From Candidatus Eiseniibacteriota bacterium (lineage in GTDB: Bacteria; Arandabacterota; Arandabacteria; JAGLYR01), in NCBI GenBank assembly GCA_023132135.1, contig JAGLYR010000322.1, positions 1 through 15,170 of the forward strand: a stretch of DNA of 15,170 nucleotides, written 5' to 3'. The position numbers were made by a program, and so were the translations under genes. Positions 8,224 through 9,179 of this stretch are shown one piece after another; positions within the stretch are counted from its first letter, which is position 1, and each line of letters starts with the position of its first letter. The notes beneath the pieces were generated by a model, which saw only the letters and a program-made list of their open reading frames with translations, made no database searches and was not told the origin of the DNA.

Positions 8224-8298
8224 CCTCCCCAACGGGATTTGAACCCGTGTCGCCGCCGTGAAAGGGCGGTGTCCTAGACCAGGCTAGACGATGGGGAG
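8224..8298 (-). tRNA. tRNA-Glu(UUC)
   Basis: It folds as a complete cloverleaf: acceptor CTCCCCA/TGGGGAG, D arm from GTCTAG to AGGAC as in E. coli tRNA-Glu, anticodon stem CCGCC/GGCGG with loop CTTTCAC (anticodon TTC), and T arm ACGGG-TTCAAAT-CCCGT. The discriminator base is G and CCA is not encoded. This is the only intact copy; its first 32 bases recur at 8566-8597 and 8865-8896. Confidence 0.95.
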
Positions 8299-8318
8299 GA
8301 TTCAGATGTCAATCCTGC

Positions 8319-8347
8319 AGACTACTCACCCAGGCACGAACTGTCAA
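8319..8347 (-). promoter_or_regulatory. Promoter of tRNA-Glu
   Basis: On the minus strand a perfect TTGACA (8347-8342) is followed by a 17-base spacer and TAGTCT (8324-8319), then 20 bases to the tRNA 5' end. The -35 and spacing are ideal; the -10 matches consensus at only three positions. Confidence 0.65.
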
Positions 8348-8565
8348 CCCCCTATGCGGCCACACAGGTTTGAATACTGGAACTCGAGAGCCGGAAGCCG
8401 AGAACCGACCGAGGCGAGAAGCCAGCCTTTGCTTCTGGTTTGGTCTTTGACCCTCCGGCTTTCGGTTCTCGCTTTTCGCATCTCGGCTTTCGGCTTTCGC
8501 ATCTCACCTCTCTGGCCACACGCGCGAAAGCCCGAGGTCACCTCGGGCATGTCCCGTGTGGCCGA

Positions 8566-8597
8566 CGGTGTCCTGGACCAGGCTAGACGATGGGGAG
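8566..8597 (-). pseudogene. Truncated tRNA-Glu, 5' segment only (unit 2)
   Basis: The first 32 bases of tRNA-Glu are present with one change in the D arm (TCTAGGAC to TCCAGGAC). The sequence then switches, in the 5' side of the anticodon stem, to the nested hairpin of the neighbouring unit. It cannot make a tRNA but keeps the promoter at 8618-8646 (TTGACA, 17 bases, TAGTCT). Confidence 0.85.
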
Positions 8598-8617
8598 GAT
8601 TCAGATGTCAATCCTGC

Positions 8618-8646
8618 AGACTACTCACCCAGGCACGAACTGTCAA
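8618..8646 (-). promoter_or_regulatory. Promoter copy of unit 2
   Basis: TTGACA (8646-8641), a 17-base spacer and TAGTCT (8623-8618), identical in layout to the promoter of the intact tRNA but serving the truncated copy at 8566-8597. Confidence 0.55.
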
Positions 8647-8864
8647 CCCCCTATGCGGCGACACAGGTTTGAATACTGGAACTCGAGAGCCGAAAGCCGA
8701 GAACCGACCGAGGCGAGAAGCCAGCCTTTGTTATTGGTTTGGCTCTTGACCCTCCGGTTTTCGGTTCTCGGTTTTCGCATCTCGGCTTTCGGCTTTCGCA
8801 TCTCGCCTCTCTGGCCACACGCGCGAAAGCCCGAGGTCACCTCGGGCATGTCCCGTGTGGCCGA

Positions 8865-8896
8865 CGGTGTCCTGGACCAGGCTAGACGATGGGGAG
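8865..8896 (-). pseudogene. Truncated tRNA-Glu, 5' segment only (unit 3)
   Basis: The same 32-base tRNA-Glu 5' segment with the same break and the same D-arm change as the copy at 8566-8597. It lies under the strongest promoter of the array (8917-8945). Confidence 0.85.
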
Positions 8897-8916
8897 GATT
8901 CAGATGTCGATCCTGC

Positions 8917-8945
8917 ATAATAGTCGGGGAAACACAGACTGTCAA
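8917..8945 (-). promoter_or_regulatory. Near-consensus sigma-70-type promoter of unit 3
   Basis: On the minus strand TTGACA (8945-8940), a 17-base spacer and TATTAT (8922-8917), eleven of twelve consensus positions, directed at the truncated tRNA segment. It is better than the promoter in front of the intact tRNA gene. Confidence 0.7.
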
Positions 8946-9179
8946 GCCCTTATGGGGGCGGGTCGAATACTGGAACTCGAGAGCCGAAAGCCGAGAACCG
9001 ACCGAGGCGAGAAGCCCGCCTTTGTTACTGGTTTGGCTCTTGACCCTCCGGCTTTCGGTTCTCGCTTTTCGCATCTCGGCTTTCGGCTTTCGTATCTCGC
9101 CTCTCTGGCCACACGCGCGAAAGCCTGAGGTCACCTCGGGCATGTCCCGTGTGACCGGCGCTTTTTCCTGTTAGTTTTC

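Follow-up and report, generated by a model that had tools for sequence, protein, structure and literature searches.

Upstream of an intact tRNA-Glu gene in a Candidatus Eiseniibacteriota genome, the tRNA promoter and the first 32 bases of the tRNA occur twice more, each time breaking off into a hairpin. Whether such units are kept for the RNAs that they might express, or are leftovers of the way in which the locus was built, is the question that this array raises. The window analyzed here is the whole stretch of 15,170 nucleotides that contains it. TRF detected a tandem array at 8267-9157 (299 bp x 3.0 copies, 93% matches, score 1521), and a repeat search placed the unit starts 299 and 294 bp apart; the three copies, 294-299 bp in length, cover 8267-9159 on the minus strand. 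The array is real and far beyond chance. The initial annotation had described three units of about 299 bp, only one of which continues into a whole tRNA-Glu, and this was borne out, as ARAGORN and Rfam both identified a sole whole tRNA-Glu(TTC), at 8298-8223 (-). Its layout of the units was correct as to the three repeats but has to be redrawn: the true unit is not headed by the promoter and instead runs from nested hairpin to heptamer-repeat stem element, promoter and tRNA-Glu nucleotides 1-32, and the hairpin and stem with which the array opens at 9159 follow no tRNA. In the order of transcription, from 9159 down, the features are:

9107-9159 (-): hairpin 0, nested, with a GC inner stem and the outer stem GGTCACACG/CGTGTGGCC; no tRNA ahead
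8971-9106 (-): stem element 0, ordered AGA, A1 (GAGGCGAGA), A2 heptamers, loop, A1' (TCTCGCCTC), GGTC, A2'; pseudoknot-type order, without an ORF
8917-8970 (-): far spacer and promoter, TTGACA-17-TATTAT at 8945-8917
8865-8896 (-): truncated tRNA-Glu, nucleotides 1-32, with the common T-to-C change in the D loop
8813-8864 (-): hairpin 1, fused to tRNA nucleotide 32
8677-8812 (-): stem element 1, with A1 GAGGCGAGATGC and A1' GCTTCTCGCCTC, GGTC and A2'
8618-8676 (-): mid spacer and promoter, TTGACA-17-TAGTCT
8566-8597 (-): truncated tRNA-Glu, nucleotides 1-32, with the common T-to-C change in the D loop
8514-8565 (-): hairpin 2, fused to tRNA nucleotide 32
8378-8513 (-): stem element 2, whose loop recurs without change in a dispersed copy on contig C288
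8319-8377 (-): proximal spacer and promoter of the intact tRNA, TTGACA-17-TAGTCT
8223-8298 (-): intact tRNA-Glu(TTC), by ARAGORN and Rfam

Both truncated tRNAs end after nucleotide 32 (...GGACACCG), at 8865 and 8566, and pass straight into TCGGCCACACGGG..., which agrees with the earlier claim that the tRNA is broken at one and the same base into a nested hairpin. A D-arm change had also been reported, and it is present in both copies as C for T at the 3' end of the D loop (nucleotide 24 counted from 8299, that is, nucleotide 23 from 8298). The junction and the T-to-C change, both common to the two, support the proposed descent of the truncated copies from one rearranged ancestor. The source genome is available as a MAG-like assembly of 345 contigs, and the repeats exceed typical short-read length, circumstances under which the array might be suspected of being an assembly artefact. 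Artefactual duplications would, however, be near-identical, whereas these copies differ by several percent and in a promoter block, and the unique flanks are continuous on both sides; we regard this explanation as very unlikely.

The hairpin and the purine/pyrimidine stem of the array match the leader of 23S_rRNA_IVP (PF05635) genes. One of these is the gene immediately following the intact tRNA-Glu, and its own trailer hairpin and stem occupy the interval between the two. Part of the array unit is also 87% identical to 4550-4418, the leader of a degenerate PF05635 frame. These loci comprise:

8174-8225 (-): trailer hairpin of the intact tRNA-Glu, its outer arm beginning at the tRNA 3' end
7988-8173 (-): stem element of the IVP gene behind tRNA-Glu, AGAGGGGTGA ... 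CCCCTC-GGTC
7628-7987 (-): IVP gene, PF05635 (23S rRNA-intervening sequence protein), 119 aa, 107.8 bits against a cut-off of 33.8
4524-4577 (-): dispersed array-like hairpin, GGCCACAC...GTGTGGCC, ahead of the dispersed stem element
4372-4523 (-): dispersed stem element, its identity to the array extending over 4418-4550
3790-4371 (-): degenerate IVP frame behind the dispersed copy, with a weak PF05635 match below the cut-off

Between the two IVP-type loci, an ORF at 4999-5742 (+) shows a weak, below-cut-off match to Abi_alpha (PF14337, E 7e-5), and 9251-10213 (+) encodes a secreted-looking protein of 320 aa whose internal repeats are rich in cysteine and which matches no Pfam family.

Trailers of hairpin and heptamers were also found behind tRNA-Glu(CTC), tRNA-Arg(CCG), tRNA-Asn and tRNA-Arg(CCT) of the same genome. 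In these four the hairpin prolongs the tRNA 3' end and 7-bp repeat arms follow, an arrangement absent from most other tRNAs examined. No 3' half of the element was found near tRNA-Glu(CTC), and the arms behind tRNA-Arg(CCT) are in reverse orientation. The loop of stem element 2, unlike those of units 0 and 1, is identical to that of a solo copy (L043, contig C288, around 1909 (-)), which suggests that dispersed copies of the element may have exchanged sequence. On contig C126, an IVP gene (L042, 1393-1980) is convergent into the solo trailer element of tRNA-Asn. On contig C301 (L041, 3880-3560 (-)), a tmRNA-like 3' end is followed by a hairpin, a stem element and a broken IVP start, whose matching ends after about 25 codons, where the sequence fronting a second IVP gene intervenes; a true tmRNA was considered there and rejected, as only the 3' end is tmRNA-like and neither Rfam nor ARAGORN found a tmRNA.

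The association with stable RNA genes extends well beyond this genome. We sampled 80 relatives of its three IVP proteins in named genomes of bacteria, chiefly Planctomycetota and Omnitrophota. A tRNA or tmRNA gene on the strand of the IVP gene precedes 54 of them by no more than 300 bp, and a search of 800 bp upstream gave no such gene on the other strand at any of the 80 loci. The hosts are tRNA-Pro, Ser, Arg, Gln, Met, Ala and Gly genes and tmRNA. A tRNA neighbor was found at only 2 of 70 loci of the wider PF05635 family, drawn from genomes across the domain (p = 5e-18, Fisher), a value that overstates the number of independent events because the 80 loci were chosen by similarity to the proteins of this genome, are dominated by Planctomycetota tRNA-Pro loci and may in part be orthologous by descent. 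The two linked loci of the wider family do not have the hairpin/GGTC layout, and tRNA linkage as a rule for all PF05635 proteins is ruled out by these counts. Rather, the tRNA-linked proteins form one clade in the protein tree (83 rows, support 100/99), with all three proteins of this genome inside it. The host label switches many times within the clade, where the inner forks are weak as a result of the few alignment columns. Judged by eye, most of the remaining 26 loci either are truncated by the start of a contig or retain a 3' remnant resembling tRNA-Pro, tRNA-Ser or tmRNA; L094 and L153 are the exceptions, showing neither. Other stable RNAs were considered as neighbors of the loci without a tRNA, and Rfam found none adjacent.

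In the initial annotation a tRNA-Glu 5' segment was fused to a GC hairpin followed by a long stem; hairpin and stem do not constitute a new partner for the tRNA, since both are part of a widespread IVP-linked element behind tRNA and tmRNA genes. A search of open-access full text for tRNA-linked IVP genes returned nothing relevant apart from a paper on the Coxiella IVS, and the occurrence of relatives of the element immediately after tRNA and tmRNA genes in many bacteria appears to be previously undescribed. In Omnitrophota, clusters of tRNA-Ser genes contain cut-off 5' and 3' pieces of tRNA-Ser beside hairpins (L157:2352-2379, L157:2163-2200 and L151:1930-2400), a possible parallel to the truncated tRNA-Glu copies.

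Between the stable RNA and the ORF, most loci have the same order of parts: hairpin, AGA, A1, A2 with its purine-rich heptamers, loop, A1', GGTC and A2'. The AGA anchor is present in 60 of 77 scored loci, and the three array units all conform to this order. At 36 of 39 anchored loci, the 5' arm of the hairpin begins 1-4 bases inside the tRNA end called by ARAGORN; these bases are the discriminator alone or, if the gene encodes CCA, the discriminator together with CCA, and the 3' arm changes in step. Across 44 distinct pairs, A1 and A1' form on average 8.2 of 9 Watson-Crick pairs with their own partner, compared to 4.5 +/- 0.3 (maximum 5.5) when shuffled; part of this excess is built in, as the search that located the A1 positions favors pairing. 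No such bias affects the compensatory changes seen at individual positions (GC, TA, AT and CG at one place), and A1 and A1' covary strongly. For A2 and A2', the score was 11.5 with the own partner and 9.3 +/- 0.28 with swapped partners, a contrast that low-complexity repeats weaken. Since A1 pairs across A2, and A2 pairs outside, the predicted helices would interleave as in an H-type pseudoknot, and the order of the segments implies such a fold in the element. No match to the element was found in Rfam 15 at the gathering score, either in the window, where only tRNAs were reported, or in the other loci of this genome and 40 related loci.

Among known systems, the closest are the intervening sequences (IVS) of 23S rRNA, inserts that are known together with their S23p/IVP protein, with examples in Coxiella and, as cited in the Coxiella paper, Salmonella; their origin, their mobility and the role of the protein are open questions (PMC4990558). 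In the 23S IVS of Coxiella, a protein of the same family is encoded, tandem heptamers stand immediately upstream of its start codon, and excision is by RNase III (PMC4990558). The locus studied here likewise contains a PF05635 ORF (7628-7987, the array units themselves being without one), 7-bp runs in the stem element as heptamers ahead of the ORF, and inverted-repeat stems (hairpin, A1/A1' and A2/A2'), which are interleaved rather than forming one terminal stem, and it is embedded in a stable-RNA transcription unit. It differs in having a hairpin that starts from the tRNA 3' end and the conserved A1-A2-A1'-GGTC-A2' order. Because it does not lie inside 23S rRNA (helix 25/45), there being no rRNA in the window and the host being tRNA-Glu, we do not class the element as a 23S IVS. 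In view of the protein family, heptamers and RNase III excision of the Coxiella IVS, it can be described as IVS-like at a different address, and the class looks like a variant of the 23S rRNA intervening sequences.

Two structures of IVP-family proteins, 2GSC (XCC0516) and 2RLD, are related to the protein at 7628-7987 (E 5e-11 and 0.003, respectively), but their records give no RNA partner or tRNA linkage. These proteins resemble Avd of diversity-generating retroelements. No such retroelement was found in this genome, whose only reverse-transcriptase match (PF00078, in a 533-aa ORF at L234:1081-2682, contig C168) is away from any IVP gene, and the enzyme was rejected as a partner of the IVP protein. 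The location at tRNA/tmRNA 3' ends is also that of integrative elements which target these genes. Unlike integrase islands, however, the element measures only about 0.5 kb and the repeated part of the tRNA is the 5' end (nucleotides 1-32), not the 3' end; no integrase gene was found among the ORFs scanned in the window. The heptanucleotide STRR repeats of cyanobacteria are likewise degenerate tandem repeats of 7 bp, located between genes and in the context of stable RNAs, but we know of no IVP gene or discriminator hairpin in them.

Taken as a whole, we consider it likely that the array arose by tandem duplication at tRNA-Glu(TTC) around an apparently mobile, IVS/IVP-related tRNA-trailer element, with the truncated tRNAs and extra promoters as by-products. 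The full element would consist of the trailer hairpin, the heptamer stem in pseudoknot order and the IVP (PF05635) gene, and the starting point would have been a copy without the ORF upstream of the tRNA-Glu promoter. In a first duplication, tRNA nucleotide 32 would have been joined to the 5' edge of the hairpin of that copy, and a later unequal exchange would have added one more unit. If the array was built in these two steps, the tRNA pieces and additional promoters are the joints of the duplications, and this is probably all that the broken tRNAs are. Similarity between the leader copy and the two internal copies stops where tRNA nucleotide 32 meets the hairpin, from which we infer that the breakpoints were the edge of hairpin 0 and the interior of the tRNA; the order of the events is inferred likewise. 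The initial annotation had offered a by-product of tandem duplication as one of its two readings, and this finds good support in the unit boundary in the leader copy, which coincides with the intra-tRNA junction, and in tandem duplications of related hairpins and stems in three other genomes (L095, L150 and L163). The breakpoint in L150 is again the 5' edge of the hairpin, and in L095 and L150 the duplicated unit includes the start of a cut-off IVP frame; unlike in these three, the passenger in the tRNA-Glu array is the tRNA promoter and 5' segment.

Given that its relatives are found immediately after tRNA and tmRNA genes, the element is probably co-transcribed from the tRNA promoter, and its position, together with the IVS precedent, suggests removal during 3' maturation, in which RNase III may cut the stem as it does in 23S rRNA. 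Transcripts of the truncated units would then be either short-lived RNAs of tRNA fragment and hairpin or a long leader of the real pre-tRNA.

The promoters were analyzed separately. TTGACA with 17-nt spacing is present in all three units and, as had been claimed, the best sigma-70 match in the region (11/12) is the far promoter, in the unit farthest from the tRNA. The mid and proximal -10 box, TAGTCT, is less poor than at first sight, because by eye the -10 boxes at other tRNA promoters of this genome are TATTCT, TATGTT and TATATT. The far promoter segment differs from the mid and proximal ones at 17-18 of 54 sites (about 33%) and by a 5-nt gap, while the other segments of the unit have diverged by about 0-7% (p = 5e-9 for the far versus mid promoter contrast, Fisher). 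One simple duplication followed by uniform drift does not explain this divergence. The far promoter block (8970-8917) has a history that differs from that of the rest of the unit, possibly involving replacement, gene conversion or selection, the last being conceivable because this promoter is the best match.

The earlier statement that the promoters have been kept gives no evidence of selection, as any duplication carries promoters along automatically; in fact, no other part of the unit is conserved as poorly as the promoter segment. This also bears on the proposal that the truncated units are kept for chimeric RNAs, in which a tRNA-Glu 5' part joined to a hairpin would have tRNA processing, glutamyl-tRNA partners or the IVP protein as its target. 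The shared TTGACA and spacing, the 11/12 far promoter, the near-invariance of tRNA 1-32 among units and a unit RNA that folds better than shuffles (z = -3.7) are compatible with it, but that z-score is already expected from the known hairpin and stem. Moreover, the search of related genomes that had been suggested gave no instance of the array or of its tRNA/hairpin junction in 40 other genomes, the nearest of which belong to the same class only. We found no evidence of function for the chimera, which shows neither conservation nor a signal of selection, and judge this proposal improbable.

A different role for the far promoter would be to drive the intact tRNA-Glu by read-through, the truncated units forming a leader of ~600 nt that RNase P or RNase III cuts off while the weak mid and proximal promoters decay. 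The 11/12 far promoter beside -10 boxes of only TAGTCT is in line with this, and a terminator scan flagged none on the minus strand inside the array. Nevertheless, TAGTCT may work, given local tRNA boxes such as TATTCT and TATGTT, and in each array hairpin the GC inner stem is followed by TTTCG, which could cause partial termination; we hold read-through to be unlikely as well. Tandem duplication around the trailer element remains our preferred reading.

A broader proposal seems to us about evenly balanced between right and wrong, namely that the array is one tandem amplification within a widespread, undescribed class of small mobile RNA elements specialized on tRNA/tmRNA 3' ends. In such elements the hairpin would pair with the discriminator/CCA end of the host, a GGTC pseudoknot would follow, and the IVP protein would serve as mobility or RNA-binding factor, with movement between hosts (Pro, Ser, Arg, Gln, Met, Ala, Gly, Glu and tmRNA).

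The tRNA-trailer element accounts for unusual tRNA fragments and arrays of environmental genomes, with no recourse to new regulatory RNAs. If a subfamily of IVP proteins does reside on tRNA/tmRNA 3' ends, in a covarying structure to which the host tRNA contributes its own 3' end, two questions would become concrete and testable: which RNA the IVP protein partners with, and by what rule the element inserts.
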